Positions 20,233 through 42,317 of a stretch of 64,000 nucleotides of DNA are shown here, one piece after another. The stretch's first letter is position 1. Each line of letters begins with the position of its first letter. Position numbers and translations under genes: made by a program. The stretch is taken from the IMG/VR virus record IMGVR_UViG_3300034691_000044, positions 1-64,000 of that record, one strand, 5' to 3'. This DNA is from a virus. Under the pieces are notes generated by a model. It did not search any database. It was not told the DNA's origin and saw nothing but the letters and a program-made list of their open reading frames with translations.

Positions 20233-20472
20233 ATGGAATACATGCTGCTTCGTGATGGGTCTGTGAAGGTTGTACCTGAACTGTCCAATAGGATCTCTGT
20301 TCGCAATGAACTCATACGTTCTGACGGTATTGAGTACTACTGGAAAGAGAACGCTGTAGATTGGTGTTGCATACTGGCTAGTACACCTGCTCTGTCAATA
20401 GACAATGTCGAAGTAACTGTCGATTATGTAGATGTGCCTGATGTAATCAAACTTGCCGCAATGCTGGAGTAA
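20233..20472 (+). CDS. Early paralog family, member 1 (C-terminal VPDVIKLAAML)
   Basis: 79 residues. N-terminus MEYMLLRDGSVKVVPE forms a beta-hairpin-like start shared with the next gene, followed by an aromatic patch (GIEYYWKENAVDWCC) and ending in YVDVPDVIKLAAMLE. The closing motif [VIL]P[ED]x[IVL][KR][LM]A recurs at the very end of eleven other small proteins in this window. Three bases separate it from member 2. Function unknown; no known domain recognised. Confidence 0.75.
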   Translation: MEYMLLRDGSVKVVPELSNRISVRNELIRSDGIEYYWKENAVDWCCILASTPALSIDNVEVTVDYVDVPDVIKLAAMLE

Positions 20473-20475
20473 TGT

Positions 20476-20727
20476 ATGAATATGCATGAATACATGCTAT
20501 TGGCTGACGGTTCTGTACTCCCATTTCCCAATGGTGTGCCAACTGCGCATCAAATAGCATATTTGCTTATTGAATATCGTGGTATAGCCTACTATTGGCC
20601 AGGGGCTATCCAATATCTCGTTGAAGGTTGGTATGTACTGCTTCCTGTATTTGAACACGAAGGAGGCACTCGCATAGATTATGCTGATGTACCCGATCTG
20701 ATCAAACTTGCAATAATGCTTACATAG
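20476..20727 (+). CDS. Early paralog family, member 2 (C-terminal VPDLIKLAIML)
   Basis: 83 residues, clearly a duplicate of member 1: EYMLLADGSVLPFPN matches EYMLLRDGSVKVVPE, GIAYYWPGA matches GIEYYWKEN, and YADVPDLIKLAIMLT matches YVDVPDVIKLAAMLE. Aromatic content is high in the middle. Followed by a TTC-loop hairpin. Confidence 0.75.
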   Translation: MNMHEYMLLADGSVLPFPNGVPTAHQIAYLLIEYRGIAYYWPGAIQYLVEGWYVLLPVFEHEGGTRIDYADVPDLIKLAIMLT

Positions 20728-20728
20728 T

Positions 20729-20741
20729 TCCCCTTCGGGGA
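20729..20741 (+). promoter_or_regulatory. TTC-loop hairpin behind paralog 2
   Basis: TCCCC-TTC-GGGGA, perfect 5-bp stem with 3-base loop, directly after the stop codon of member 2 and 40 bases before the next start. Same geometry as the hairpin at 19215. Candidate vRNAP promoter or small terminator. Confidence 0.35.
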
Positions 20742-20780
20742 TGAAATAGGCAATTGCCCCTAACTACAGGAGTTATATCC

Positions 20781-21023
20781 ATGCAATGCAATGTATCTAG
20801 CTTGTCTCGTGCTGATGCTACACATCCTATTTGTAAGTACAGCACTGCAACTGAACGTCGTTTACTCAAGCAATTGAGTACTAAGCGTATGCGTCGTATT
20901 GCTGTACCTGACATTGTTGCTGCCATTCATGATGATCATCGTGAGTGTGAGGTAACTGTCATCAAGCCTCGTATGTTTGCACACATTGTCAATTGTGACT
21001 GTGTGCTGTGCTCTCGCCTTTAA
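20781..21023 (+). CDS. Early hypothetical protein, Cys-containing
   Basis: 80 residues from an ATG behind CAGGAGTTATATCC. Contains five cysteines (positions 3 and 18, and HIVNCDCVLC at the end) that could bind a metal, and a basic middle (KRMRRIAVPDIVAAIHDDHR). A basic, Cys-bearing early protein could be a host-interaction factor. No family recognised. Confidence 0.65.
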   Translation: MQCNVSSLSRADATHPICKYSTATERRLLKQLSTKRMRRIAVPDIVAAIHDDHRECEVTVIKPRMFAHIVNCDCVLCSRL

Positions 21024-21039
21024 TTTAGGAGTCATATCC

Positions 21040-21369
21040 GTGAACAATCAACAACGTAAAACCAGTGATGTAATTGCCCTCGCGGTAAATGATCCACGCT
21101 ACTTGCGTGGCAATGACGGTGAGATGTTCTTGTGCCGCATGCTTGAATGTATGCGCATAGAGGGTGTTATCGCCCATCTGGAATGTCACGCTGCCCGTCA
21201 AACAATTGACGAGGCTATCAACGGCAGCTGCACGCTGTACTCCCACTTGTGGGCGAATGACGTGAAAGGGTTCCGCCAAGCGTGCTCCACGTACAAACGC
21301 CGCAAGAACGATATTCGTGTCCAATTCTGGGCCATGCTCTGCATGCAACTCAAAGCTAAAGGGGAATAA
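21040..21369 (+). CDS. Early hypothetical protein
   Basis: 109 residues, starting at GTG 21040 behind TTAGGAGTCATATCC, the same RBS context as the previous gene. Predicted helical with basic patches (STYKRRKNDIRVQFWAMLC). Function unknown. Confidence 0.65.
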   Translation: MNNQQRKTSDVIALAVNDPRYLRGNDGEMFLCRMLECMRIEGVIAHLECHAARQTIDEAINGSCTLYSHLWANDVKGFRQACSTYKRRKNDIRVQFWAMLCMQLKAKGE

Positions 21370-21372
21370 CCC

Positions 21373-21579
21373 ATGAACAAGTTTCAAATTGTCATCGGAG
21401 CTTTCGCCATCTATGGAATGCTGACCATAGGTTTCAGCTTCCTGGCCTGGATGAATTCTGCCAGCTTGCATGCTGAAAACAAACCAGATGTTTACTTAGG
21501 TAACTTCTGGAAGTGGGGTGTGATCATTATCCTGCTTATCGTTGTCTTTGCATTCTTTGCTGGCCCTGCTAAACCTTAA
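21373..21579 (+). CDS. Two-pass small membrane protein
   Basis: 68 residues with two hydrophobic segments, about 4-27 (FQIVIGAFAIYGMLTIGFSF) and 48-64 (WGVIIILLIVVFAFFAG), joined by a short polar loop. Position among early genes suggests a role at the host inner membrane. Not a lysis-cassette holin by location. Function unknown. Confidence 0.7.
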   Translation: MNKFQIVIGAFAIYGMLTIGFSFLAWMNSASLHAENKPDVYLGNFWKWGVIIILLIVVFAFFAGPAKP

Positions 21580-21590
21580 GGAGTATTCCT

Positions 21591-21716
21591 ATGCCTTCCA
21601 ACATGAACGATTACAACAGCGGCTATGAAGCATTCATGGACGATGAAGACTTTGACCAGACTCAGTCGCAAGATTGGCAAGATGGTTACCTCGACGCACA
21701 AACTGTAGGAGCTTGA
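21591..21716 (+). CDS. 41-residue acidic protein
   Basis: ATG behind AAGGAGTATTCCT. The product is rich in Asp, Gln and Tyr with two similar short segments (DYNSGYEAFMDDED and DWQDGYLDAQ). Such acidic mini-proteins can mimic DNA or bind host factors, but there is no direct evidence. Stop and next start are two bases apart. Confidence 0.6.
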   Translation: MPSNMNDYNSGYEAFMDDEDFDQTQSQDWQDGYLDAQTVGA

Positions 21717-21718
21717 TC

Positions 21719-22015
21719 ATGTTCTCTGCTTACTTCCTTACTTGCATGCTCAGTGCTTCGGGCAACTACGGTTGCAACGTGGCCTTCACTGAAATGACTG
21801 CCGATGTTCAAGAACAAAGCCAGTGTGATGAACTGACTGTGGATATGCATCAGTATGTCCTCGATCAAATCGCATCTGAGTTCCCAAGTATGACTGTGGT
21901 CCGCCAGGAACATGGTTGCTACGCCGGTCCTCTGTCTGCTGGTGAGATTGCCCGCGATGAACATGCAAAGCTCTTGAGTGAGGGCATTGAAGCCTCGCTT
22001 TCAGAAATTCCGTAA
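21719..22015 (+). CDS. Early hypothetical protein, possibly exported
   Basis: 98 residues. N-terminus MFSAYFLTCMLSASGNYGC is hydrophobic and Cys-containing, suggesting a weak signal or membrane anchor; the rest is acidic with two more cysteines. Downstream gene is an AP2-like homing gene. Function unknown. Confidence 0.6.
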   Translation: MFSAYFLTCMLSASGNYGCNVAFTEMTADVQEQSQCDELTVDMHQYVLDQIASEFPSMTVVRQEHGCYAGPLSAGEIARDEHAKLLSEGIEASLSEIP

Positions 22016-22080
22016 CCTATATTCCTTTCAGTGTTTACCTATATATGTGATAGAATATTAATTCACTAGGAGGAGTTGTT

Positions 22081-22719
22081 ATGTTTATTGAAAAACCTAT
22101 AACCATCGAAAAGCCGCGCAAATTGATTAATGGGATTGGCGTTAATGATGCCCCTTACTCAGTAAGCTATCGTGAAGACGGTAAGTTAATTACCTGTCCT
22201 TACTACAAGGCATGGGTAGCCATGTTCCAGCGTTGTTATAGCGCTGCATGGCATGAGCGTTACCCGTCATACGTAGGATGTTCGGTAGCACCTGTGTGGC
22301 ATAAATTCACGAGTTTCCGCGAATGGATGCAGACACAGGATTGGGAAACCAAGCAACTGGATAAAGATATAAAAGTACCGGGCAATAAGGAGTACGGGCC
22401 TACTGTTTGTTTGTGGGTGTCCTCGCAAATCAATAGTTTGTTCAATACAGGGGCTCTAGCTAAAAGCGGCCTGCCTGTTGGAGTAACCAAACACTGGAGC
22501 GGACGCTTTGAAGTAGGCGTGAGCTTTGGCACGAGTAAACGTAGCTACGTTGGCAGTTTCAAAACTGTACGTGAGGCTGCTGATGCTTATGTGAAAGCAA
22601 AGGCAGAAGCTATCGCGTTAGCTGCGGACAAGGAACCTGATCCTATAATTCAGGAAGCTGTTCGAGCTTTCGGTGTGCATTACCTACAAAAGCTAAAAAA
22701 TGCAAATACTGCATTCTAA
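22081..22719 (+). CDS. AP2-like putative homing endonuclease / DNA-binding protein, copy 1
   Basis: 212 residues with a strong RBS (AGGAGGAG). Order of parts: GIGVNDAPYSV, a Cys/Trp region (YYKAWVAMFQRCYSAAW), YPSYVGCSVAPVWHKFTSF, LDKDIKVPGNKEYGPTVCLWV, then an AP2/ERF-like C-terminal module (GLPVGVTKHWSGRFEVGVSF). The same architecture is in two further genes of this window (41742 and 62220), about 40 kb apart, so it is a dispersed mobile family. Phage proteins with this layout are usually annotated as HNH/AP2 homing endonucleases. Base composition is lower in GC than late genes. Confidence 0.75.
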   Translation: MFIEKPITIEKPRKLINGIGVNDAPYSVSYREDGKLITCPYYKAWVAMFQRCYSAAWHERYPSYVGCSVAPVWHKFTSFREWMQTQDWETKQLDKDIKVPGNKEYGPTVCLWVSSQINSLFNTGALAKSGLPVGVTKHWSGRFEVGVSFGTSKRSYVGSFKTVREAADAYVKAKAEAIALAADKEPDPIIQEAVRAFGVHYLQKLKNANTAF

Positions 22720-22766
22720 TAATACAGAAAGTGCCATATCCGGCGATGAAAACCATACGCCTGTGT

Positions 22767-22780
22767 GGCCCTTTTGGGCC
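22767..22780 (+). terminator. Small hairpin between homing gene and HTH gene
   Basis: GGCCC-TTTT-GGGCC followed by TTGG, 27 bases before the HTH gene start. Short stem; terminator or regulatory hairpin. Confidence 0.35.
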
Positions 22781-22806
22781 TTGGCGGTAAGCTAACTGAG
22801 GTGTCT

Positions 22807-23067
22807 ATGACCACTGCAAAAAAACCTGAATCCTTTGCTTCGCACAACCTGGATCACCTGAAAGTGTTGATTGCGCGTGAGATTCGTAAGCAAATCTCTG
22901 AAAACAACATGAAATACATCGTTGCAACCGAAATCTTCGGATTGAGTGGCGCAGCTGTGTCTCGCATTGTTAATTGCAAGGAACTCAGCATGTCGTTCGA
23001 AACGCTGCACAATGCGGCTGTAACGTCAGGCATGATCGTCAGTATGCAACTGTCTGTGCCCAACTAA
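22807..23067 (+). CDS. Helix-turn-helix DNA-binding protein
   Basis: 86 residues. Central segment IVATEIFGLSGAAVSRIVNCKELSMSFETL fits a Cro/XRE-type helix-turn-helix (helix, turn at LSGAAV, recognition helix SRIVNCK). It is probably an early transcription regulator of the phage or host. ATG 22807 is used; the longer frame begins inside the hairpin region. Confidence 0.7.
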   Translation: MTTAKKPESFASHNLDHLKVLIAREIRKQISENNMKYIVATEIFGLSGAAVSRIVNCKELSMSFETLHNAAVTSGMIVSMQLSVPN

Positions 23068-23076
23068 GGAGCAATC

Positions 23077-23355
23077 ATGCACCGTTTACGACAAGAACTA
23101 GATTTAACCGATGATTCGTTCAGTTACACCATTTTAGGTGGGCGTGAGCCTCTTTATCGTGTCGATAGCGATGGCTATCTGCATAAAGCAGGTGAAATCA
23201 TCGGTAAATTCAAACTGGGCAACAATCAGTGGCATCTGTACATCGGTGACACTTTGTTCATGGATGGGCCTGAAAATGGCCTATTCATGCTCCCCGAGTT
23301 TGAATTGAAGGCTTTGACTGCGCTGGTAAATCAAAAGCGGCCTTCGGCCCTTTAA
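23077..23355 (+). CDS. Early hypothetical protein, possible distant paralog
   Basis: 92 residues behind AAGGAGCAATC. Beta-rich (YTILGGREPLYRVDSDGYLH) and ending near MLPEFELKALTALVN, faintly like the C-terminal motif of the early paralog family but too divergent to include. Function unknown. Confidence 0.65.
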   Translation: MHRLRQELDLTDDSFSYTILGGREPLYRVDSDGYLHKAGEIIGKFKLGNNQWHLYIGDTLFMDGPENGLFMLPEFELKALTALVNQKRPSAL

Positions 23356-23407
23356 AGGCAATTGTGCCAATAAACCTCATCTTTTCCGTTATTCTGGAGT
23401 ATTTCCC

Positions 23408-23740
23408 ATGGCTGTTGAACGTAATGCATCCCGTACTGCCCCTGCTACCTCCACTGCTGCTGATCGTACCGCGAAGAAAACCCTCGGGTTCTTCAACGTG
23501 AACATCGAGACCAAAGCCGGCGCACCTGTGCGTCTGGAAGGTATCCGCTTCATCGAAGGCAACAAGCAGCATGAGCAACTGGCTGCGTACCTCTCGGTGT
23601 CCCAGGCCGTCGACAAAGACTACACGCCTGAACAGGTCGTGGAAGAGAAGGCACGTCGCCTCGGTGTCGTGGCTTCCAAGCTGACCTTCAGCTTCAACGC
23701 TACCCGTACCGACGAAGAGTCGATGCTGGACCTGGTGTAA
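23408..23740 (+). CDS. Early protein, highly expressed codon use
   Basis: 110 residues with an Ala/Thr-rich N-terminus (first 25 residues) and a mixed alpha/beta remainder (LGFFNVNIETKAGAPVRLEG). Almost all codons end in C or G, unlike neighbouring AT-rich small genes, which suggests strong expression. It has its own terminator. Function unknown. Confidence 0.75.
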   Translation: MAVERNASRTAPATSTAADRTAKKTLGFFNVNIETKAGAPVRLEGIRFIEGNKQHEQLAAYLSVSQAVDKDYTPEQVVEEKARRLGVVASKLTFSFNATRTDEESMLDLV

Positions 23741-23745
23741 TCCTC

Positions 23746-23774
23746 TGGCCATCATCCCATTGGGGTGGTGGCCA
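23746..23774 (+). terminator. Strong terminator behind the 110-residue early gene
   Basis: A 13-bp stem (TGGCCATCATCCC pairing with GGGGTGGTGGCCA, two G-T pairs) with loop ATT, followed by TCATTTTT. Confidence 0.8.
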
Positions 23775-23794
23775 TCATTTTTAGGAGCAAATTC

Positions 23795-24079
23795 ATGAGC
23801 AATACCCCTAAGCTGGCCCCTGGCCTGCACGAGTGCCGCATCGTCTCCATTGACTATGCCAAGCATGAGGATTTCATGACTGGTTGTCTTGCTGCTTTGA
23901 GCAAAGATGGCACTGTCATGATTGAGCATGTGTGGTCGTTGCCCGGTATGGTCGAGCTGAAGCCTCACAGCTACGCTGACATCATCAATATGCCTTATGC
24001 ATTGCCTCGTAAGGGTGATCGTCACCATAAACGCAAACCTCAGCCCAATCGTGGGCCAGTGGGGCGAAACCAGTGGTAA
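23795..24079 (+). CDS. Early hypothetical protein with basic C-terminus
   Basis: 94 residues; ATG 23795 has AGGAG eight bases upstream. The C-terminal 25 residues are strongly basic (RKGDRHHKRKPQPNRG), suggesting nucleic acid binding. Function unknown. Confidence 0.65.
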   Translation: MSNTPKLAPGLHECRIVSIDYAKHEDFMTGCLAALSKDGTVMIEHVWSLPGMVELKPHSYADIINMPYALPRKGDRHHKRKPQPNRGPVGRNQW

Positions 24080-24096
24080 AAGACATAGGTAGTATC

Positions 24097-24174
24097 ATGT
24101 GGCGCATTCTTGCGTCTATCCTCGTATTTACCCTCATTGCATTGCAATTTATCCCAAAAGGAGTAACACCATGA
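24097..24174 (+). CDS. 25-residue membrane peptide coupled to the next gene
   Basis: MWRILASILVFTLIALQFIP then KGVTP; one hydrophobic helix with a basic start. Its stop overlaps the ATG of the following membrane-anchored protein by four bases, which argues that it is really translated and regulates or assists that protein. Confidence 0.5.
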   Translation: MWRILASILVFTLIALQFIPKGVTP

Positions 24175-24890
24175 ACCTGAACGACTTTCTGATGATTCTC
24201 GGCGCAGCTGTGTTCATCTTGCCTATCACTTACATGATTGGCTGGGCTCGCCACCAAAAACAACACGAAGGCTGGGTAGCAGACGCTCGTGAGGGCTACT
24301 TCCAAGAGCGTAATGCTCTACGCAATAGCTACGAGAACGCACTGGCGCAGGAACGTAAGACTGTGCGTGTATTGGAGATTCAACTGCTGAAAGCAAACGA
24401 ATCCATCGAAGTGTTAGATCGTGAGGTAGGTAAGTACCGCAGTCAGTGGAAATACGCTGATAATTACCGTAAAGCTATCGTTGAGTACCTCGTAGTCAAT
24501 CATCTGTGGAAGTTTACTGAACATGGAGATGATCCTATGGCCATGATGGCTGAGATTATCAAATGGGAAACCAAGATGGCGCTGGACCCTGCAATCAGCA
24601 AGCCTGCGAAGAATCTGATCACTCGTGGTGTCCGTAAGGGCGCCAAGGCTGGCCGTGAGCAGATGCGTAAGCTGATGCAGAAGTGCATCGACAACCAGGC
24701 AGCAACCATTCGTCATTATGACCAAGAGTTGACTGCTGCCAATCTTCGCCGTATGCGCTTCACCGAAGCAGTGACCAACGTGCTTGACGACAAGATCGCG
24801 CTTAAAAGCGTCCGTAAGTCTATCAAGCAGGGCATCATTGCGGAACACGGGCGTCTGCACGCTGCTGCCGCGAAGAAGGCTGCACAATGA
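24171..24890 (+). CDS. Membrane-anchored coiled-coil early protein
   Basis: 239 residues: one N-terminal transmembrane helix (about 6-26, FLMILGAAVFILPITYMIGW), a long coiled coil (about 45-100, AQERKTVRVLEIQLLKANES) and a basic helical C-terminal half. RBS AAGGAG. It probably sits at the inner membrane with its coiled coil in the cytoplasm. It is coupled upstream to the 25-residue peptide and downstream, by a 4-base overlap, to the paralog cluster. Confidence 0.7.
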   Translation: MNLNDFLMILGAAVFILPITYMIGWARHQKQHEGWVADAREGYFQERNALRNSYENALAQERKTVRVLEIQLLKANESIEVLDREVGKYRSQWKYADNYRKAIVEYLVVNHLWKFTEHGDDPMAMMAEIIKWETKMALDPAISKPAKNLITRGVRKGAKAGREQMRKLMQKCIDNQAATIRHYDQELTAANLRRMRFTEAVTNVLDDKIALKSVRKSIKQGIIAEHGRLHAAAAKKAAQ

Positions 24891-25294
24891 ACATGCGTGG
24901 CTCTGCTAAATGGCAGAGTTACGCTGCATATCAAGGCTATCACGCCAACATACAGGTCTTTGACGACGAGGAGGACGATCCGATGGCTATCGGCAACAAC
25001 ACTGTAAAACGTGCATTCATCAAGCAGGAAGTACTGTGTGCTGTCCTGCAAAATGGCGAATCCGTACACTTTGAGTCCCGTTTGGGGTTCAATGGTGCGG
25101 ACTATGCCAAACAGGCTCATAAGAAGTTCGGCCCGTGTCGGGTGATCTTCTATCAAGCCAATGAAGCACAAATGTGGCGTGAAATCCGTTGGAAGAACGT
25201 CAACGTTGGTGCTTTATACAAACGCCCTTCGTTTATCACATTAGGGCCTGATAAGGTGCCTGAAAACCTGCGGCTTGCCGCAATGTTGTTGTGA
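24887..25294 (+). CDS. Early paralog family, member 3 (C-terminal VPENLRLAAML)
   Basis: 135 residues, the largest of the family. Contains a central FESRLGFNGADYAKQAHKKF region and ends ITLGPDKVPENLRLAAMLL. ATG overlaps the previous stop by four bases and the next gene starts at a GTG inside its own stop, so translation is coupled on both sides. First gene of the main paralog array. Confidence 0.72.
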   Translation: MNMRGSAKWQSYAAYQGYHANIQVFDDEEDDPMAIGNNTVKRAFIKQEVLCAVLQNGESVHFESRLGFNGADYAKQAHKKFGPCRVIFYQANEAQMWREIRWKNVNVGALYKRPSFITLGPDKVPENLRLAAMLL

Positions 25295-25629
25295 TCATCA
25301 CACTGCCCGACGGTACGATACATATTTACGATGCAAAAGGTACTTTGTGCGTTCGTATGGGCAATTTGGATGCGGAGAGCTTTATGTCAAAGATGGCGCA
25401 TTTAACGCTTGATGGTGTGTACATTACCAGCTATGTCATGGACCAAAACTGGTATTTGCCCACCAAAATGCAGAAATTAGCTGCAACTTACGAGCAGCAC
25501 CAGGCTTGGTGTCTGTCAGCAGGGCAATGGTACACAATACCCGTTGCAGGGCTAAGATTCTCTCGTTGGGATACCACAAGAACTGAGGATGTACCTGAAA
25601 TGGTACGAACTGCGGAGATTTTACGATGA
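25291..25629 (+). CDS. Early paralog family, member 4 (C-terminal VPEMVRTAEIL)
   Basis: 112 residues from GTG 25291. N-terminus MIITLPDGTIHIYDAKGT has the same strand-turn-strand look as member 1 (DGSVKV), the middle is aromatic (YVMDQNWYLP, WCLSAGQWYTIP), and the end reads RTEDVPEMVRTAEILR. Overlaps both neighbours by four bases. Confidence 0.7.
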   Translation: MIITLPDGTIHIYDAKGTLCVRMGNLDAESFMSKMAHLTLDGVYITSYVMDQNWYLPTKMQKLAATYEQHQAWCLSAGQWYTIPVAGLRFSRWDTTRTEDVPEMVRTAEILR

Positions 25630-26063
25630 AACAGGTAATTCGTGGTGACATGATGAGTATCTTCGACAAAGTCGATCATTTCATCATATCTGTCGGCAGT
25701 AAGCTCAGAAGTGAGAACAATGAGCTAATAATGTTAAATGGTCTGGCCGGGGCGTTGGGTCTTAAATACCCTACCCTAAAGGTGAAGATGGGAGCGTGGA
25801 TCGCGGGAGAGTGTGGCAGTGAAGGTGAGTTCTACCTTCGTGTCTCGGGGAAGGTTGGCATGCTACAGCATAGCCAGGCTCCTCGGCAAGGGGTGAGCAT
25901 CTCCATTCTGTCTACTGGCCTGCGCCTGCTGGCAGACGAGGCAGAGGCCAACCCAGAAAAGCAATATGCCCTGGAGTGGCCTGGCACCCAGCAGATCGAG
26001 ACCCTGGTAAACCAGATGCTTGATAGGTTGCCGGCCAACGTCCAGGTGTGGCGCCCAGAGTGA
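25626..26063 (+). CDS. Hypothetical protein inside the paralog array, not a family member
   Basis: 145 residues without the family C-terminal motif (ends LDRLPANVQVWRPE). From about 25740 onward it is GC-rich, unlike the AT-rich genes downstream. It may be a cargo gene or regulator inserted into the array. Coupled upstream by a 4-base overlap. Function unknown. Confidence 0.65.
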   Translation: MKQVIRGDMMSIFDKVDHFIISVGSKLRSENNELIMLNGLAGALGLKYPTLKVKMGAWIAGECGSEGEFYLRVSGKVGMLQHSQAPRQGVSISILSTGLRLLADEAEANPEKQYALEWPGTQQIETLVNQMLDRLPANVQVWRPE

Positions 26064-26068
26064 GCACC

Positions 26069-26302
26069 ATGATCATGTCAGCCCGCTATAACATGGTCTC
26101 CCGGGGGCTGGTGGAAGCGGCCACCTCTTGGGTAGGCCGTCCTGCTCATGATAAGGAACAGACCTTCGCCTTGTTCCACGCGGTCAGCGGTGACCTCAAG
26201 GACACGCGGTGGTACGTCTATGGCATTGCCCATGACGCGATCGCTGTCGAGTACAGCAAACTACCGGAGGCAGTGCGCATGGCGTATCTGTTAATTCAAT
26301 GA
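26069..26302 (+). CDS. Early paralog family, member 5 (C-terminal LPEAVRMAYLL)
   Basis: 77 residues from ATG 26069; a GTG at 26048, overlapping the previous gene, would add seven residues. Middle segment TRWYVYGIAHDAIAVEY is aromatic; end reads YSKLPEAVRMAYLLIQ. GC-rich. Coupled to member 6 by a 4-base overlap. Confidence 0.65.
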   Translation: MIMSARYNMVSRGLVEAATSWVGRPAHDKEQTFALFHAVSGDLKDTRWYVYGIAHDAIAVEYSKLPEAVRMAYLLIQ

Positions 26303-26565
26303 GCAAGTCACTGTTTGATCCTTTCGGGGGGGATGTCAACCCACGTATGCCACCGGCACCTGTACGGGTGAAGTGGGACTATGAAAAGCAGGAGGTGGTC
26401 AGTGATGGTCAGGCCAACCTGTTCGACAACTGCTGGTCCTACTTCTTCTATGGTGCCGATGAGGCATTGCAGTGGGGCTTGTCCCGCTACGAAGGTGATC
26501 ACCTGTTTATTGTAGAGGGCGCTGTCCCAGAAGTAGTACGGCTTGCCGTAATGGTGATGGAATGA
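26299..26565 (+). CDS. Early paralog family, member 6 (C-terminal VPEVVRLAVMV)
   Basis: 88 residues. Pro-rich start (MSKSLFDPFGGDVNPRMPPAP), aromatic core (CWSYFFYGADEALQWG) and ending EGAVPEVVRLAVMVME. Coupled to both neighbours by 4-base overlaps. Function unknown. Confidence 0.7.
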   Translation: MSKSLFDPFGGDVNPRMPPAPVRVKWDYEKQEVVSDGQANLFDNCWSYFFYGADEALQWGLSRYEGDHLFIVEGAVPEVVRLAVMVME

Positions 26566-26777
26566 GCACAAAACGTTTAGGTTGGTGCCGGCTGACAGGG
26601 GAACTCGTGCTTGATGCGCAAATCTTAAACATTCCATATCTTCGTGATGATATGGATGTTTACTCCCACAATGGGGCTATGTGGCTAGTATGGACACCTG
26701 AAAGTCAATGCTATTCATATATAACACTTCTGAATGTCCCCGAACTAATTAAATTAGCAATGGTGATGCTCGAATGA
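26562..26777 (+). CDS. Early paralog family, member 7 (C-terminal VPELIKLAMVM)
   Basis: 71 residues, the shortest member. RLTGELVLDAQILN, then GAMWLVWTPESQCYSYI and ending LNVPELIKLAMVMLE. AT-rich relative to members 5 and 6, pointing to separate acquisition or divergence. 4-base overlaps at both ends. Confidence 0.7.
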   Translation: MSTKRLGWCRLTGELVLDAQILNIPYLRDDMDVYSHNGAMWLVWTPESQCYSYITLLNVPELIKLAMVMLE

Positions 26778-27064
26778 GGACTTTCGAACGCGCTGCTCCC
26801 TTCGGGGAGTTCAGCATGGGAACTTTGTTCCTTGTGGTGAACGATATACCGGAAGTATGTCATTGCACATACTATAAGACAAACCTGAAGATTGCCCGTG
26901 AGGCTAAGGATGAAGATCCATTTGCTATTGTGTTTCTGCTTACTGAGCAGGGAACTTGGTTCAAAGGTGACTATTGCTACACAGACGGCAGGCATAAATT
27001 CACTCCTGTGGGTAAGTCAGCTGTACCTCAACTAATCCTGATGATGAACGTGGTGAAACCATGA
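26774..27064 (+). CDS. Early paralog family, member 8 (divergent C-terminus VPQLILMMNVV)
   Basis: 96 residues from the overlapping ATG 26774; an internal ATG at 26816 (RBS GGGGAG, MGTLFLVVNDIPEV) would align better with member 9 (MSVLWIVLNDDKSAV) and is a serious alternative. A hairpin CTCCC-TTCG-GGGAG lies just before that internal start. The C-terminal motif is present but degenerate. Confidence 0.65.
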   Translation: MRTFERAAPFGEFSMGTLFLVVNDIPEVCHCTYYKTNLKIAREAKDEDPFAIVFLLTEQGTWFKGDYCYTDGRHKFTPVGKSAVPQLILMMNVVKP

Positions 27065-27366
27065 GCGTATTATGGATCGTGCTAAACGACGACAAATCCG
27101 CAGTTATTGAGGTGTTTGAAACTATTGAGGCAGATTCTAAGCCTCACTGGGATAAGTTCTTTGAACACAGGGCCGGTAACGTCTTCTGTCGCAGAATTCA
27201 GGATTTAGCATGGGTAAAGCCAGCGCAGTCAAAAGTAACGTGGTTCGTCAACTATTTCTACTGGGAAGACATGTCCCGTTGGGGATATGGTGACCCAACT
27301 GGAATGGGTTGGTCTGCCTGCATGGCCATACCTGAAATTCTCAAAATGGTGGAATTCCTGGAATGA
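27061..27366 (+). CDS. Early paralog family, member 9 (C-terminal IPEILKMVEFL)
   Basis: 101 residues. N-terminal strand MSVLWIVLNDDKSAVIEVFE, aromatic core (TWFVNYFYWEDMSRWGYG), end AIPEILKMVEFLE. Coupled by 4-base overlaps to members 8 and 10. Confidence 0.7.
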   Translation: MSVLWIVLNDDKSAVIEVFETIEADSKPHWDKFFEHRAGNVFCRRIQDLAWVKPAQSKVTWFVNYFYWEDMSRWGYGDPTGMGWSACMAIPEILKMVEFLE

Positions 27367-27626
27367 GTAAACAAATAACAGTTGGTTTTCTTGATGGAGA
27401 GATAACTGATGTAACTTCTCAATGGATGACAAGTCAAACGGTGGAAGGTCACTTTAGCGTTGGTGATGTGTATGTTTACACTCAAGAGCCTCATGGTATG
27501 CAATGGCGTGTTCTGCAACGTAGTACACGAATAAATGCTACAACTGGCACTTATGCCGCTTTACTACCCTGCAAAGCTGAGCAAGTTCCTGAAATTGTAC
27601 GAATGGTTGCGCTGATGCGCGAGTGA
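27363..27626 (+). CDS. Early paralog family, member 10 (C-terminal VPEIVRMVALM)
   Basis: 87 residues. MSKQITVGFLDGEITDVTSQ gives the DG-turn hairpin seen in members 1, 2 and 4; the end reads AEQVPEIVRMVALMRE. AT-rich. Six bases separate it from member 11. Confidence 0.7.
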   Translation: MSKQITVGFLDGEITDVTSQWMTSQTVEGHFSVGDVYVYTQEPHGMQWRVLQRSTRINATTGTYAALLPCKAEQVPEIVRMVALMRE

Positions 27627-27632
27627 GGAATT

Positions 27633-27866
27633 ATGGGCATTGACGATAGGGTGATAGCTTATATCTTTCGAGGTAAGCTGGAAACCGAGGTAGTAAACCG
27701 CTGGAAAGCCCGGGAACGTATGACTCAGCTGAATAACTGCACACTTGCAGAGATTTACTTCTTTGACCCTGATGGGGAGATTTATGTAATGCATCACAGC
27801 AGGGAATATCGAAAAAAGGCCAAAAGTGTACCAGAAGAGATCAAACTAGCGGCAATGCTGCTATAG
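27633..27866 (+). CDS. Early paralog family, member 11 (C-terminal VPEEIKLAAML)
   Basis: 77 residues. MGIDDRVIAYIFRGKLETEV, central IYFFDPDGEIYVMHH, end KSVPEEIKLAAMLL, closest in its tail to members 1 and 3. RBS GTGAGGAATT. Seven bases before member 12. Confidence 0.7.
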   Translation: MGIDDRVIAYIFRGKLETEVVNRWKARERMTQLNNCTLAEIYFFDPDGEIYVMHHSREYRKKAKSVPEEIKLAAMLL

Positions 27867-27873
27867 GGGACGT

Positions 27874-28110
27874 ATGCGTATATTCATTCTGAAGTTCGAC
27901 AATACCGTCGAGGTTACGGAGTCTTTTTCCGACCACCCGTACTACACCCACAAGAACTACCAGAAAGGTCAGGTATTCTGCGAGAGGCTTGTAGGCAAGA
28001 GTGATTATTGGTGCGTACTGCACCGAGACCACAAAGGTAATGGCCCCTCGTGGGTTCATTCTGTAAAAGTACCAAAAGAAGTGCTATTCGCACGAATGCT
28101 CGTAGATTAG
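27874..28110 (+). CDS. Early paralog family, member 12 (C-terminal VPKEVLFARML)
   Basis: 78 residues. MRIFILKFDNTVEVTESF start, aromatic YWCVLHRDHKG middle and a diverged tail VKVPKEVLFARMLVD. Last member, eleven bases before the RNA polymerase II gene, so the array is probably transcribed together with it. Confidence 0.7.
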   Translation: MRIFILKFDNTVEVTESFSDHPYYTHKNYQKGQVFCERLVGKSDYWCVLHRDHKGNGPSWVHSVKVPKEVLFARMLVD

Positions 28111-28120
28111 GAGAAGATCC

Positions 28121-29050
28121 ATGAAACTGACACACATGCTCACTGACGACATGCAAAAGGCAAACGAGTATCGATTTGCCAAACAGCATATCGACAAGTA
28201 CATGCGTGACTACGTGCTGAACGACCCTGAAGTCCTGCCCCTGCTGGACAAAGGCGTGGACTTGCTCACCGCCTGGGTCAATACCGAGTTCAGCTACGCA
28301 TCGAAGAACCTCCGGGTCAGTGCCCTACGGGGTATGGACCTGCGTCAGCTCGTTACTGATCTGATTGTGGCCTCGGCCTTCTGCCAGGTGGAAGAACTGT
28401 TCACCAGCTTCACAGCGCGCATGGCCGGCATCCTCGGCTGGGACGATAAGAAGGCCAGCATCACTACCATCGCGGAAATCACCGCGGTGCTATGCGACAC
28501 CGATCTGTATGACCTGACCCAGGCCAACCGGTTCGGCAGCTGGAACATCATCAGCAACATCACGCTGTCCTTGCAATTGCAGGAGTACATCAGCAACTGC
28601 GCATATCTGCCTCCGCTGGTGCATCCACCGAAGAAGCTGCGCCACAACAAGGACACGCCGTATCTGACCATTGGTCAAGACTCGGTGATCCTGAATAAGG
28701 GTCACCATAACGACGATGTGTGCCTTGATGTACTGGATTCAAAGAATTCCGTGGCATTGAGCCTGGACCTGGACTTCCTCTGCAAAGTAGAGGAAGAATC
28801 AAACAGTGAGTTGGATACTCCCGAAAAGCAAACCATGTGGTTGAACATGAAGCGCCAGTCGCACGAGTTCTACTTGCTCATGGCTGGCCAAGGCAATAAG
28901 TTCTACTTGCATCACAAATACGATAAACGTGGGCGTATCTACGCCAATGGTTATCACATCTCGACTCAGGGTGCGCCCTTCAAAAAGGCATGCTTAGAGT
29001 TCGCCAATAAAGAAGTCGTATCCGACATCCCACAGGAGTTTCAATTATGA
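28121..29050 (+). CDS. RNA polymerase II, N-terminal subunit (N4 RNAP1-like)
   Basis: 309 residues, the N-terminal half of a T7-type single-subunit RNA polymerase, which N4-like phages split into two proteins that form a heterodimer for middle transcription. The recognisable part is at the end: FYLHHKYDKRGRIYANGYHISTQG, the GR-containing motif that contacts template and hybrid (T7 DWRGRVYA). The catalytic motifs are absent here and are found in the gene at 29793. RBS AGGAGAAG. Stop overlaps the next start by four bases. Confidence 0.9.
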   Translation: MKLTHMLTDDMQKANEYRFAKQHIDKYMRDYVLNDPEVLPLLDKGVDLLTAWVNTEFSYASKNLRVSALRGMDLRQLVTDLIVASAFCQVEELFTSFTARMAGILGWDDKKASITTIAEITAVLCDTDLYDLTQANRFGSWNIISNITLSLQLQEYISNCAYLPPLVHPPKKLRHNKDTPYLTIGQDSVILNKGHHNDDVCLDVLDSKNSVALSLDLDFLCKVEEESNSELDTPEKQTMWLNMKRQSHEFYLLMAGQGNKFYLHHKYDKRGRIYANGYHISTQGAPFKKACLEFANKEVVSDIPQEFQL

Positions 29051-29487
29051 GCACTGAAAAGCAGCTGTACCTTGCACTGAAGAACATTCTGGAGCCATAC
29101 CGTTCAGGTATGGAATCGGGAGACTGGTGCGGTGAGCCAAATGCCCAGACAAAAAAGGAAATTGCTGACGCTGAGGAAGCATTAGCGTGCTTTGAACTGG
29201 ACCTTGGCCCGTTGCCTGATTGGGCATCTGCCCACAACATTGCACAAGAACCTGTGACATATGCACAGCTTTTCACCCGGAACCCTCGCCGTAATGGCAA
29301 TGCCATGATCTTCTACGTAGGTACTTCCCATTTCGGTGTTATCACCGACATGGGTAACGCTATGACACTGAGTCTTGTGGAGTTGCATCAATTGTACGAG
29401 ATTGGTGACTACATCATGGACGAACGTGGTTATGAGAAGCGTAAGCGCCAACGTGACGATTATATGGTTCCGTTGGAGGCTGACTGA
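29047..29487 (+). CDS. Hypothetical protein between the RNA polymerase II genes
   Basis: 146 residues, coupled to the N-terminal polymerase subunit by a 4-base overlap. Acidic helical first half, then YVGTSHFGVITDMGNAMTLS suggesting a small alpha/beta domain. Its placement between two subunits of one enzyme hints at a co-regulated factor. No family recognised. Confidence 0.7.
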   Translation: MSTEKQLYLALKNILEPYRSGMESGDWCGEPNAQTKKEIADAEEALACFELDLGPLPDWASAHNIAQEPVTYAQLFTRNPRRNGNAMIFYVGTSHFGVITDMGNAMTLSLVELHQLYEIGDYIMDERGYEKRKRQRDDYMVPLEAD

Positions 29488-29777
29488 TGGCAAGACTGTT
29501 CATTCGGCATAAACCGGTGGATTGCAACGTACAGATGGGCAAGTCCAGCGAAAATATGTTCTTAATGCGTCGTGATGTACTAACTGCGCATGGAATTAGC
29601 CTGGATGCTTACTCAATCGACTGTGCATACGTCTGTGTTGCGCATGAAGGTAAGATATGGGCAGTAAGGAGCTTCGGGGCACACCCTGAAAGCTCCATTG
29701 TCCGTGTGCAGTGCGTTCCTCTAGACGATCAGCCATGTGTGCAACAGATGCTGCTGACTGGCATGATTCTCAATTAA
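29487..29777 (+). CDS. Hypothetical protein between the RNA polymerase II genes
   Basis: 96 residues, start overlapping the previous stop (TGATG). Contains five cysteines and an alternating beta pattern (CAYVCVAHEGKIWAVRSFG). Function unknown; could be related to the early small proteins but lacks their C-terminal motif. Confidence 0.65.
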   Translation: MARLFIRHKPVDCNVQMGKSSENMFLMRRDVLTAHGISLDAYSIDCAYVCVAHEGKIWAVRSFGAHPESSIVRVQCVPLDDQPCVQQMLLTGMILN

Positions 29778-29792
29778 TTAAGGTGAATAACC

Positions 29793-31046
29793 ATGCGTAC
29801 ATACACTGCTTTTGAATTTCTGTGCATCGACATAGCGAACCAGAACGACTTAGATAAGAAGCTGTTCGAAGAACGAATCCAGTGGGTGAAAGAGAATTTC
29901 AACCGCCTGCTGTTCCTTCAAACCAGCAAGAAAGAACGTCCGCTGTACCTCAAGGCTGTGAACGCCCTGTACCGCGCCTGCAAGGGCGAGGCTATCGGCC
30001 ACATGGTTGGCCTAGATGCAACCTGCTCGGGCATGAGCATCATGTCCGTAGTCACCAAGTGCTATAAAGGATGCCTGGCCACAAACCTGATCGACCCGGA
30101 CTCCCGGAACGATGCCTACACCATGGTCACCAACGCCGCTGGCGATATGCTGGATGGCGACTTGATCGTCACCCGGCAAGATGCCAAAGACGCAACCATG
30201 ACCACTCTGTACGGTTCCCAAGCCAAGCCGCGTGAGATCTTCGGTACTGATACCGAGGAACTGGATGCTTTCTATGCTGGCTTGGTGGCGACTGCACCAA
30301 AGGCTGTGGAACTGCTGGGTGACCTGCGCATGGCGTGGCAACCCTTTGCCCTGGAACACCGTTGGGTATGCCCGGACAACTTCAACGTCCGCATCAAGGT
30401 GATGCAGAAGGTGGAAGGTGAGCGTGTGGAAGTCGACGAACTCGACGGTGCATCGTTCACCTACGAGTATTACGTCAACGAAGGCACCAAAACTGACCTG
30501 AAGCTAGTGGCCAATGTGACTCACTCACTGGACGCCTACCTGCTCCGTTCTATGGAGCGCCGCTGCAACTACGATCAATCCAAAGTGCAAACTGCCCTAT
30601 ATATCTTGGGCGGGATGCAAGATGGTCGCCGTATGGGCGAGGAAGTCGAACAAGACTTGGGCGAAGCCTCCAACCTTGCACAACAGCTCATTGCTGTGTG
30701 GGGTGGCTGTGAAATGCCTGATGCTCGCTTGCTCAACGAGCTTACTCGTACTGACGTGCAGTTCATGAGTGATAAGCACATTGAGCAGATGATTGCATTG
30801 GCAAACCAGTTGCTGGAACGTGAACCATTCGAAATCGTGACGGTGCATGATGAATTTAAATGCCACGCCAACAATTGCAACTGGATGCGTCTCACTTACG
30901 CACAAATCATGGCCGACCTGGCCCGTGCGCGCGTACTTGAGGACATCTACGAGCAGATCACCGGCATGACGCCGACTTACAAAGACCAAATGGATGGAGA
31001 CGAGCTTGCAGCTCTGATCCTGAACTCAAACTACGCCTTGTCGTAA
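29793..31046 (+). CDS. RNA polymerase II, catalytic C-terminal subunit (N4 RNAP2-like)
   Basis: 417 residues with the T7-type catalytic motifs: motif A MVGLDATCSGMSIMS (Asp75), motif B DAKDATMTTLYGSQAK (Lys132, Tyr140) and motif C VTVHDEFKCHA (His352, Asp353). With the protein encoded at 28121 it should form the middle-gene RNA polymerase, which in N4 works with a phage ssDNA-binding cofactor. Tyr140 is the usual sugar-selecting residue, in contrast to the Phe seen in this phage's vRNAP. Confidence 0.93.
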   Translation: MRTYTAFEFLCIDIANQNDLDKKLFEERIQWVKENFNRLLFLQTSKKERPLYLKAVNALYRACKGEAIGHMVGLDATCSGMSIMSVVTKCYKGCLATNLIDPDSRNDAYTMVTNAAGDMLDGDLIVTRQDAKDATMTTLYGSQAKPREIFGTDTEELDAFYAGLVATAPKAVELLGDLRMAWQPFALEHRWVCPDNFNVRIKVMQKVEGERVEVDELDGASFTYEYYVNEGTKTDLKLVANVTHSLDAYLLRSMERRCNYDQSKVQTALYILGGMQDGRRMGEEVEQDLGEASNLAQQLIAVWGGCEMPDARLLNELTRTDVQFMSDKHIEQMIALANQLLEREPFEIVTVHDEFKCHANNCNWMRLTYAQIMADLARARVLEDIYEQITGMTPTYKDQMDGDELAALILNSNYALS

Positions 31047-40575: not shown

Positions 40576-41742
40576 ATGACACAAATTGAAGAGTTCTGGA
40601 AAGCCATTACCAAGGCACGATTGGATCTCATGCAGATGCCAAAAGCGACGTTTCTGACGACGCTGGCCCTGATGATGAAGCAGAAGGTCGACGATGTGCG
40701 CTGTCAAACAGCGGCCACCGACGGTCTCTGTATCTTTTATAACACCGGCTTCTTCCTGGCTTTGCCTCGGAAGCAGCGGCCGACTGTGATTGCCCACGAG
40801 GCTATGCATGCGGCGCTAGACCACCTGTTCCTGGCCAAGGCACACAATGTGACGCCGGAGCAGCACCTGCGCTTCAACAAAGCAGCGGACTTCGTGATCA
40901 ACGACTTCCTAGTGCAAGCCGGCTTCGAACCGATCCCGGGCTGGTGCCACGACGTGAAGTATCGCGGTATGACAACCATGGCTGTTTATCGGCTATTGGA
41001 GGAAGACGAAGCCAACGGTGGTGGCGGAGGTGCTGGTGATCCTATGGATGACCTCATGGAGCCGGGTTCCTCCGAACCTGGCCTGTCCGAGTCCGAGGTG
41101 AAACAGCAAGTGCAGTCCAACGTGACGGCCGCTGCTGTGGCCACCAAGATGAAAGGCGGCGACATGGCGGGCAATATACCCGCTGACGTGCAAGTCTTCT
41201 TGGACGGCCTCCTGAAGCCCAAGCTGCCTATGGCTGCACACCTGCGTAAGTTCTTCAAGGCTGTAGACAAATCAGACTACAGCTGGAAAAAGCTCAATCG
41301 CCGGTTCCAGCCGCAACTGATGCCCGGGCTCCAGGGTAAAAAACTGGGGCACATCGCTTTCGCGTTCGACATGTCGAGCTCGGTAAGCGATAAGGACATC
41401 AAACGCTACGTCAGTGAGCTGTATGCTGTGGTGCGCAACCTCAAACCAGACCGTATAAGCCTGGTTCAGTTCACTTGTGAGCTGAAGTCGGTGCATCGTA
41501 TCAAGTCTGTCCGCGAGCTGGCTGAAGTGGAACTGCGCGGCCGCGGGGGCACCGATATCGAGCCTCTCATGCAGTGGGCCAAGGAAAACAAACCGACAGC
41601 ACTCTGCGTGTTCACGGATGGCGAATATTCGCATCCTTCCTTCAACCCCGGGTGCCCAATCATGTGGCTCATTCACGGTTATTCGAAAGAACACTTCCAC
41701 TGTGACTTCGGTACAACCATCCTGTTCGATGTGGGGGAATAA
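40576..41742 (+). CDS. VWA protein with N-terminal metallopeptidase-like domain (MoxR partner)
   Basis: 388 residues. The N-terminal domain has VIAHEAMHAALDH with HEAMH (74-78), the zinc-binding HExxH of metallopeptidases, followed by a Gly-rich linker (about 150-165). The C-terminal VWA-like domain begins at AFAFDMSSSVSD (Asp265), an acidic DxSxS MIDAS motif, and ends with CVFTDGEYSHP. This domain pair is usual in MoxR partners. The role in N4-like phages is not established. Stop overlaps the following start (TAATG). Confidence 0.88.
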   Translation: MTQIEEFWKAITKARLDLMQMPKATFLTTLALMMKQKVDDVRCQTAATDGLCIFYNTGFFLALPRKQRPTVIAHEAMHAALDHLFLAKAHNVTPEQHLRFNKAADFVINDFLVQAGFEPIPGWCHDVKYRGMTTMAVYRLLEEDEANGGGGGAGDPMDDLMEPGSSEPGLSESEVKQQVQSNVTAAAVATKMKGGDMAGNIPADVQVFLDGLLKPKLPMAAHLRKFFKAVDKSDYSWKKLNRRFQPQLMPGLQGKKLGHIAFAFDMSSSVSDKDIKRYVSELYAVVRNLKPDRISLVQFTCELKSVHRIKSVRELAEVELRGRGGTDIEPLMQWAKENKPTALCVFTDGEYSHPSFNPGCPIMWLIHGYSKEHFHCDFGTTILFDVGE

Positions 41743-42317
41743 TGCCAAGAACTGTATACGGGGTAGGGATTAATGACGCGAATTACGAAGTTACCAATCC
41801 ACGTTGTCTGCTGTACGCAATGTGGGCAAACATGCTCAAACGATGTTATTACGTACCATACCTTGCAGCCAACCCTACATACCATGGGTGCTCAGTTGTG
41901 GGGGAGTGGCATTCATTCAATAACTTCCGTGAATGGGCAAAACAACATGCATGGATGGGTAAGTGTTTAGACAAGGATATAAAGACGGAAAACTGCAAAG
42001 TCTACTCGCCTGATACGTGTCTGTTTGTTACACAAGAAGTAAATAAACTTTTGAATAAACAGGAGAAAAAACGAGGCAGTTACCCCATTGGTGTAAGTTT
42101 TCACCGACGTGATCAGGTGTTTCACGCTTATATCCGAAAAGATGGCAAGCGTGTTCACTTAGGTTCGTTCAATACACCAGAAGAAGCATCACGTAAGTAT
42201 CTTGCTCATAAAGGGGAGTATGTGATGAAACTGGCTTTGCGTTCCTTAAACCCTGATGAGAAAACCGGCTTGCTTCGTATTTCTCAGCAGATACTCAAAG
42301 GCACTTTTTATGAGTAA
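41742..42317 (+). CDS. AP2-like putative homing endonuclease / DNA-binding protein, copy 2
   Basis: 191 residues of the same family as the genes at 22081 and 62220: GVGINDANYEV, YAMWANMLKRCYY, CLDKDIKTENCKVYSPDTCL and an AP2-like end (YPIGVSFHRRDQVFHAYI). It is inserted exactly between VWA and helicase genes, overlapping both (one base, eight bases), and is AT-richer than either. Such precise placement is typical of homing genes that do not disturb their host genome. Confidence 0.75.
   Translation: MPRTVYGVGINDANYEVTNPRCLLYAMWANMLKRCYYVPYLAANPTYHGCSVVGEWHSFNNFREWAKQHAWMGKCLDKDIKTENCKVYSPDTCLFVTQEVNKLLNKQEKKRGSYPIGVSFHRRDQVFHAYIRKDGKRVHLGSFNTPEEASRKYLAHKGEYVMKLALRSLNPDEKTGLLRISQQILKGTFYE

Follow-up and report, generated by a model that had tools for sequence, protein, structure and literature searches.

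The first 64,000 bases of the IMG/VR virus record IMGVR_UViG_3300034691_000044 (the window hereafter; the record runs to 73,600 bases, of which about 9.6 kb lie outside the window) carry, between positions 20,233 and 28,110, an array of twelve small genes whose products end in a common motif, and most of these twelve proteins form a single paralogous family by common descent. Judged from sequence similarity, the source virus is N4-like (Schitoviridae) and near Pseudomonas phage phCDa (Shizishanvirus), with Pseudomonas-type bacteria as hosts, and the array lies upstream of its RNAP1 gene. We tentatively favor the reading that these are single-domain early proteins in which the C-terminal, or tail, helix provides a shared contact and the variable N-terminal portions, or heads, are putatively directed against the host, either in takeover or in counter-defense. 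The twelve open reading frames (ORFs), of 71 to 135 residues and all on the plus strand, are present where a preliminary description of the window placed them, those at 20233 and 26069 beginning at internal ATG starts within ORFs listed from 20110 and 26048. We refer to members by their start positions; the array is composed as follows.

20233..20472, plus strand: member 1, 79 residues, tail VPDVIKLAAMLE; nearest to member 2; included in the starting alignment; its profile match covers 78 of 87 positions.
20476..20727, plus strand: member 2, 83 residues, tail VPDLIKLAIMLT; modeled with AlphaFold2 (predicted local distance difference test [pLDDT] score of 87.2, predicted template modeling [pTM] score of 0.80).
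24887..25294, plus strand: member 3, 135 residues with an N-terminal extension, tail VPENLRLAAMLL; final profile E value of 3.5e-14.
25291..25629, plus strand: member 4, 112 residues, GTG start, tail VPEMVRTAEILR; final profile E value of 5.3e-13.
25626..26063, plus strand: gene inside the array that does not belong to the family; its LIT1 and 98PfluR60PP counterparts are annotated as phosphatase.
26069..26302, plus strand: member 5, 77 residues, tail LPEAVRMAYLLIQ; profile E value of 3.1e-5, over model positions 47 to 84 of 87 only.
26299..26565, plus strand: member 6, 88 residues, tail VPEVVRLAVMVME; profile E value of 0.013 over model positions 67 to 85 of 87, head unlinked.
26562..26777, plus strand: member 7, 71 residues, tail VPELIKLAMVMLE; final profile E value of 2.7e-15.
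26774..27064, plus strand: member 8, 96 residues, tail VPQLILMMNVVKP; final profile E value of 1e-10.
27061..27366, plus strand: member 9, 101 residues, tail IPEILKMVEFLE; modeled with AlphaFold2 (pLDDT of 88.3, pTM of 0.78); missed by the final profile.
27363..27626, plus strand: member 10, 87 residues, tail VPEIVRMVALMRE; round-one profile E value of 4.7e-6.
27633..27866, plus strand: member 11, 77 residues, tail VPEEIKLAAMLL; tail-only match with an E value of 0.0057, model positions 68 to 85 of 87.
27874..28110, plus strand: member 12, 78 residues, tail VPKEVLFARMLVD; adjoins RNAP1 on its upstream side; a row of the starting alignment.

Members 3 to 12 are consecutive, the sole interruption being the gene at 25626-26063, which profile comparison does not connect to the family (maximum of 1.4%). 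Four-base overlaps occur at 6 of the 9 junctions between directly neighboring members, with gaps of 3, 6, and 7 bases at the others, and GC content ranges from 0.42 to 0.57 among members; in these respects, the preliminary description was accurate. The DG turn that it had noted near the N terminus was found in 4 of the 12 members (20233, 20476, 25291, and 27363). A tryptophan 17 to 40 residues ahead of the tail motif, a zone picked after inspection of the data, recurs in 11 of the 12 members, compared with 7.1 in shuffled sequences (72 of 5,000 shuffles reach 11); it is absent from this zone in all six proteins of the 27633 group.

The tail consensus across the twelve proteins is VP[ED]x[IV][KR][LM]A. 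The motif as originally proposed ([VIL]P[EDQK].[IVL][KRL][LMF][AMV], 1 to 8 residues from the stop) is strictly present in 11 of the 12, whereas 25291 (VPEMVRTAEILR) breaks one position with a threonine and is caught by a looser motif. Of the 521 six-frame ORFs of at least 40 residues in the window, 11 match the strict motif, all of them within the claimed set, and 200 residue shuffles yielded a mean of 0.025 matches with a maximum of 1. Pairwise codon identity over ten core tail codons falls from 0.637 at positions 1 and 2 to 0.374 at position 3, and all four proline codons are used for the invariant tail proline; because third positions vary and the proline codons are not fixed, the tail helix is conserved at the level of protein. 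It is scarcely credible that the 3' ends are conserved as DNA or RNA elements, such as recombination sites or translational coupling signals, with the peptide as a by-product: the 4-base stop/start overlaps do cause the next ribosome-binding site to fall inside the tail codons, but the five members that have no such overlap with a next member (20233, 20476, 27363, 27633, and 27874) have the same tail, and we reject a DNA-level origin of the motif on the codon evidence. The C terminus of RNAP2 was also considered as the source of the motif and rejected (-3.5 bits).

For most members, similarity reaches far beyond this tail. We iterated a profile starting from an alignment of 26 sequences (alignment A4; four groups, three from the window), and across the loci searched, the final profile of 87 positions recovers 98 ORFs at an E value of <1e-3, of which 91 have matches covering 60% or more of the model (the count includes some phages twice, and one entry, L014 1845-2456, is a longer ORF); no reversed decoy reached this threshold in any of the five rounds. 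The final round contains nine of the twelve window members at an E value of <1e-3; for eight, the match spans 60% or more of the model, and for 26069, the second half only. A match to a later profile is partly built in for any member that had been recruited in an earlier round. In round one, 27363 was found over positions 9 to 75 of 75 before it or its orthologs had been included, 24887 was found over positions 6 to 74 of 75 (E value of 0.0027), and 25291, whose orthologs were already in the alignment, was found over positions 22 to 75 of 75 (E value of 9.5e-9). Within the virus's own record, the A4 profile has ten matches up to an E value of 10, all at member genes (nine genes, three of which are rows of A4). 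Linkage beyond the last residues by a profile hidden Markov model, on which the preliminary description had staked the unity of the family, is thus observed for eight members but falls short for 26299, 27633, and 27061.

Pairwise comparisons of ortholog-group profiles, which are less sensitive than the iterated search, give a more fragmentary picture. The 20233 type aligns with 25291, 27363, 27874, and a Littlefix type, and 26069 aligns with 26562 and 27363, over 66 to 76 columns at 88.9 to 95.5% probability, and many other pairs align over the tail only or not at all. When the last 20 residues are removed, nearly all of these links drop to background, the survivors being 27363 with 27874 (62.6% over 57 columns), 27633 with a Littlefix type (27.9%), 20233 with 27874 (27.2%), and 26069 with 26562 (17.7%); seven valid groups of non-family early proteins, used as hhalign controls, reach maxima of 5.9% at full length and 14.5% without the last 20 residues. 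This loss of signal, and the three members that are joined by the tail alone or not at all, would be expected if unrelated proteins shared only a short C-terminal tag, for example, a degradation or localization signal. We nevertheless consider such a tag very unlikely, and it is largely refuted for the eight members united, free of decoys, over most of one domain; in addition, the tail is predicted to fold with that domain.

AlphaFold2 models were obtained for 20476 (from 26 sequences) and 27061 (from 8 sequences), which profiles join to each other at the tail only. Both models show the common order strand, strand, helix, strand, strand, strand, C-terminal helix, a comparison made by order of elements rather than by superposition; the prediction for 27061 is less sure because its other four models are weaker (79 to 67). 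Of the unrelated folds that the preliminary description named as telling against a family, the predicted order of elements in the two divergent members modeled (2 of the 12) gives no sign. The tail is predicted as a helix; its block pLDDT values are 96 and 89 in 20476, and the final blocks of 27061 have values of 91, 84, and 59. In the 26-sequence alignment, a tryptophan of the fourth strand and the tail proline never vary, and the turn glycine and one alanine of the tail hardly do.

The resources that we searched yielded no convincing match that would give the family a function. In Pfam-A, ten members were searched at an E value of ≤1 (best score of 15.7 bits, against a cutoff of 27), the other two had no match at ≤0.1, and the 26 sequences of A4 had none at ≤0.01; in PHROGs, the best E value for ten members searched at ≤1 was 0.16, and the other two had no match at ≤0.01. 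Relatives from other loci produced PHROGs matches only at E values of 0.0032, 0.0097, and 0.016, the latter two to entries of unknown function. The first 10 of the 12 members had no NCBIfam or PADLOC match at an E value of ≤0.1, and two family profiles found no PDB sequence below 0.2 (best E values of 0.42 and 0.21). No such family is mentioned in the papers searched, including passages of PMC7650795, PMC10654107, PMC3715699, PMC6027278, and PMC4193335, with subscription literature mostly outside the scope of the search. The earlier remark that no described family of this kind was known is, therefore, upheld for these four libraries, the PDB, and the literature searched.

Structural searches were similarly sparse. 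With the 20476 model, a Foldseek search of a viral fold library returned a phCDa protein first (E value of 0.0033) and an 82-residue protein of phage ZC08 third, with no match at an E value of 0.001. PDB fold searches returned no convincing relative, which does not in itself establish that the fold is new. The top PDB chains for the 20476 model included the T4 antitoxin Dmd (5hy3_B; Z score of 3.3, root mean square deviation of 2.8, 49 residues aligned to a chain of 57), also a small phage protein, and this weak resemblance is a lead only. It is highly improbable that the family consists of antitoxin-like inhibitors resembling Dmd: the Z score is at the level of unrelated rows and not significant, Dmd is absent from the 50 Foldseek PDB rows listed of 85 (where the best E value is 2.7), and no sequence relation was found, no PDB chain matching the family profiles below an E value of 0.2.

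To count relatives, we scored the last 24 residues of uncurated plus-strand ORFs of 45 to 200 residues with a matrix trained on the twelve window tails (threshold of 8 bits; the count for the window itself is circular). Seven Shizishanvirus-like loci besides the window have 8 to 17 motif-bearing ORFs: L002 (10 of 64), L003 (17 of 78), phCDa (L004; 14 of 87), L013 (12 of 48), L014 (10 of 45), L015 (11 of 42), and L016 (8 of 80), of which L013 to L015 are pieces of contigs. Littlefixvirus-like phages have fewer (Littlefix, 4 of 54; 98PfluR60PP, 6 of 53; L009, 5 of 51), followed by L026 (3 of 56), L012 (3 of 53, with identical motif peptides), pYD6-A (2 of 41), LIT1 (1 of 47), LUZ7 (1 of 38), B2 (1 of 50), L024 (1 of 78), and L018 (1 of 55, probably by chance). 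Background amounts to 0.05 to 0.45 ORFs per locus in shuffled ORFs and 0 to 2 on minus strands, and some matrix-positive ORFs overlap another frame (e.g., L004 7308). The LIT1 and LUZ7 proteins resemble the family in the tail only and cannot be separated from decoys by the profile, and we leave them outside it. Copy number changes even among close relatives, the 20233 type, by our own grouping, having two copies in the window, three in phCDa, and four in L003 (two of the four L003 proteins are not joined to the others by blastp). A tblastn search with the 26562 protein matched only two phCDa entries among 50,697 phage records at an E value of ≤1, from which we conclude that the family diverges fast.

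In phCDa, gp27 to gp29, gp39, gp40, and gp42 to gp48 constitute a corresponding array, with the same tails in largely the same order; it differs in being annotated as hypothetical only, in its three copies of the 20233 type, in the extra gp48, and in that no counterpart of 26299 was found. A counterpart of 27633, with tail VPDEIKLAAMLL, lies at L004 9283-9513 in the gap between gp46 and gp47 and is apparently an unannotated gene. The Littlefixvirus array (Littlefix gp49 to gp52 and gp54 to gp56, and 98PfluR60PP) likewise consists of tandem genes ahead of RNAP1, and five Littlefix ORFs (L005) join the family profile at an E value of <1e-3, but it has its own tail variant ending in L[VI]G, and gp51, gp52, and gp54 are outside the profile. 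At L005 10726-11028 and L006 10234-10530, the protein continues for about 27 residues past the tail motif (KPDVISMAELVG), an exception to the C-terminal position of the motif. Beyond the array genera, the 82-residue protein encoded by ZC08 (Zicotriavirus, Schitoviridae) at L039 22191-22439 is a probable member, with a strand-DG-strand start, the tail LPEFVRALIVIYDI, and a profile E value of 0.0064 over model positions 11 to 79; it is the sole full-length ZC08 candidate among the 25 best rows. It is probably, by length and type of fold, the ZC08 protein returned from the viral fold library (E value of 0.14, probability of 0.96, TM score of 0.58). Membership is not proven, since the best decoy scored better (0.003) and another 82-residue ZC08 ORF reads as helical.

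Comparison of the window with L002, whose RNAP1 protein is 99% identical and whose early region is a mosaic, reveals how members diverge. For ten members (24887 and 25291 were left out, having been merged by a deletion in L002), head identity is 98 to 99% in 20476 and 26774, 77% in 26069, 68% in 27061 and 27874, 65% in 26562, 56% in 27363, 44% in 20233, 34% in 26299, and 21% in 27633. The synonymous divergence (dS) of heads is at least 0.73, and saturated in two cases, in 8 of the 10, versus 0.22 for RNAP1 and 0.30 for RNAP2, and because these values so far exceed those of the polymerase genes, whole divergent alleles have been swapped. The high dS points to such exchange, and positive selection on heads is not supported; in the most divergent head, that of 27633, nonsynonymous divergence (dN) is 1.20 versus a dS of 1.23 in a poor alignment. 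At L002 7340-7471, the deletion has removed most of the 24887 and 25291 genes (window 24887-25629); a short ORF retaining the 25291 3' end remains, and the two genes seem to be dispensable in nature. The non-family gene at 25626-26063 is 98% identical in L002, where most neighboring genes differ.

Tails are lineage specific. The 12 window paralogs have a mean tail identity of 0.39 and 8 hand-chosen Littlefix tails one of 0.44, but between the two sets the mean is 0.23; third-position identities of 0.38 and 0.36 do not support recent gene conversion as the means of keeping tails alike. Within the window, the only pairwise-alignable heads are those of 20233 and 20476; just one further pair of heads scores above 3.5, and its members come from different lineages (27363 and Littlefix 10726; Z score of 4.1). 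Repeated duplication and divergence with a fixed tail, as first proposed, accords with the profiles, the tail-matrix counts, and the pairwise comparisons alike. Either tails diverge far more slowly than heads after lineage-specific duplication, or the paralogs of a phage fit one lineage-specific contact, and we slightly favor the second.

Under the reading that we prefer, the family would have grown through tandem duplication within a single lineage of N4-like phages of Pseudomonas, each protein consisting of a domain of about 75 to 85 residues (a beta-hairpin, a helix, aromatic beta-strands, and a C-terminal helix). The tail helix would both cap the fold and contact something common to all paralogs of a phage, whether a phage or host hub or other paralogs with which it pairs, and the variable heads would bind different host proteins. 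The array would then supply a varied set of host-takeover or counter-defense factors, made before the middle RNA polymerase of the phage takes over. Accessory genes for host takeover and counter-defense typically share these traits of the array: its position, the small size and variability of its products, copy-number change, and recombination. The hydrophobic motif positions (4, 6, 7, 9, and 10) appear to span more than one face of the helix, which would suit contacts both with the protein's own sheet and with a partner.

Several results weigh against this reading. Two members, 26299 and 27633, are linked by the tail only, and 27061 was not found by the final profile (E value of 0.084 in round four). 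dN is lower than dS in all ten heads, with no sign of positive selection, and the non-family early gene 23795 is equally diverged (head identity of 62%, dS of 1.13), so that allele exchange is a trait of the early region and not of the family alone; the other four of the five non-family genes compared (23408, 25626, RNAP1, and RNAP2) are not so diverged, and other early stretches also differ. Neither the viral library nor the PDB fold searches produced a structural relative of known function. Finally, the predictions put the helix within the folded domain, so that conservation of the tail could be purely structural. This last alternative, in which the tail helix caps a small fold without any shared partner and heads drift or are replaced, owing to different targets or weak constraint, is almost as likely as a shared contact. 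In the AlphaFold2 models of both 20476 and 27061, the tail forms a helix that belongs to the domain, and the conserved head tryptophan and turn glycine are typical of fold constraints; what tilts us toward a shared contact is that the tail is uniform within a lineage across paralogs whose heads cannot be aligned pairwise, together with the apparent spread of its hydrophobic positions around the helix.

The tail might instead dock on a phage RNA polymerase, making the proteins accessory factors of RNAP1/RNAP2 transcription, in keeping with the place of the array next to RNAP1 and with motif-bearing ORFs beside RNAP1 in LIT1, LUZ7, and L026. This proposal is very probably mistaken: N4, Presley, RG2014, Kc283, Possum, P184, and L023 have RNAP1, but the tail matrix finds no plus-strand ORF of 45 to 200 residues with the tail in any of them, and, according to passages of a paper on LUZ7, LIT1, and PEV2, the additional factor in N4 middle transcription is gp2. 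DNA mimicry was also rejected, as the net charges of the twelve members and a possible thirteenth (see below) range from -7 to +3 and are not consistently acidic.

The early regions of N4-like phages contain long runs of "hypothetical proteins," and recognizing such a family reduces many separate unknowns to a single problem that can be approached experimentally through the common tail helix. If tails do bind a common partner, that partner would be a central node of Pseudomonas host takeover, and the heads would represent a ready-made library of host-directed binders or defense inhibitors. Our results suggest that profile libraries can miss fast-evolving paralog families within single genomes.

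Candidate parallels occur in other N4-like phages. In the Cbunavirus phages Kc283 (a Kosakonia phage; L031 251-7795) and Possum (L032), nine small early proteins each, of 17 and 19, respectively, contain an internal IRTxxLLG, and in P184 (L033), 8 of 20 contain [KR]xxAIG, both motifs being hand-picked. These Cbunavirus/Efbeekayvirus arrays resemble the window array in having many small early proteins per phage that share a helix-like motif, but the motif is internal rather than C-terminal, and the parallel is drawn by motif likeness. The window matrix matches 2 of 17 proteins in Kc283, 0 of 19 in Possum, and 1 of 20 in P184 (0.3 to 0.4 expected), the Kc283 matrix matches 0 of 24 in the window, and no Kc283, Possum, or P184 ORF reaches the best decoy among the 25 best rows of the final profile. 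A Littlefix matrix (0.3 to 0.5 matches expected in each phage) finds 8 of 24 in the window (one being 29487), 11 of 27 in phCDa, 4 of 20 in P184, 5 of 20 in pYD6-A, 2 of 22 in LIT1, 2 of 20 in LUZ7, 1 of 17 in Kc283, 1 of 20 in B2, and 1 of 16 in RG2014, and none in N4 (14), Possum (19), or Presley (19). A de novo motif search (zero or one occurrence per sequence) was not relied on, being poorly regularized and assigning sites in almost every protein; compared with the best of 12 null runs, which had fewer restarts, it scored 21 higher in Kc283 and 0.5 to 7.4 higher in the window, phCDa, Littlefix, LIT1, P184, and pYD6-A, and no higher in N4, LUZ7, Possum, Presley, B2, or RG2014. The enterobacterial arrays possibly follow the same strategy as the window array. 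We think it rather unlikely that the full extension of this idea holds, namely, that constant tails serve one hub or mutual docking, that heads form a combinatorial set, serving host takeover or counter-defense, that is reshuffled by recombination between phages, and that the enterobacterial internal-motif arrays do the same. Small early proteins with similar ends (ELKMNMILGVI, YVRMIDMLENN, and YLSMNKMLLG) are also present in the Pseudoalteromonas phage pYD6-A (L035 2215-6401).

The assignment of the virus follows from the genes downstream of the array, where an N4-type RNAP1-like gene is followed by an RNAP2-like gene, the arrangement taken here as the mark of Schitoviridae.

28121..29050, plus strand: RNAP1-like gene (N4 gp15 type), 91% identity to the phCDa "RNA polymerase small subunit."
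29487..29777, plus strand: possible divergent 13th member, 96 residues, tail CVQQMLLTGMILN; lies between RNAP1 and RNAP2 and corresponds to phCDa gp52.
29793..31046, plus strand: RNAP2-like gene (N4 gp16 type), with place, length, and sequence ends as in phCDa gp54 "RNA polymerase."

The tail of the possible 13th member scores 8.6 bits, compared with 20.8 to 29.9 for the twelve. The RNAP1-like protein is 61% identical to that of Littlefix and about 53% identical to those of LIT1 and its relatives, and the gene is matched in 463 of the 50,697 phage records. The stretch upstream of RNAP1 corresponds to the LIT1 early region and the equivalent stretch of phCDa, and a passage of PMC6027278 reports that early-region ORF content varies in Pectobacterium N4-like phages. 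The label "early" given to the proteins rests on synteny with phCDa, LIT1, and LUZ7 and on location before RNAP1, because a search for hairpin promoters of the virion RNA polymerase (vRNAP) found none that was convincing (10 hairpins versus 6.6 in shuffled sequence). Elsewhere in the window, 22081-22719, 41742-42317, and 62220-62822 are apparent paralogs, with GVNDAxY or GINDAxY near the start and an LDKD[IL]K stretch, that by eye resemble HNH/AP2 homing endonucleases, and 46596-47348 and 61183-61770 may be further HNH-type genes.

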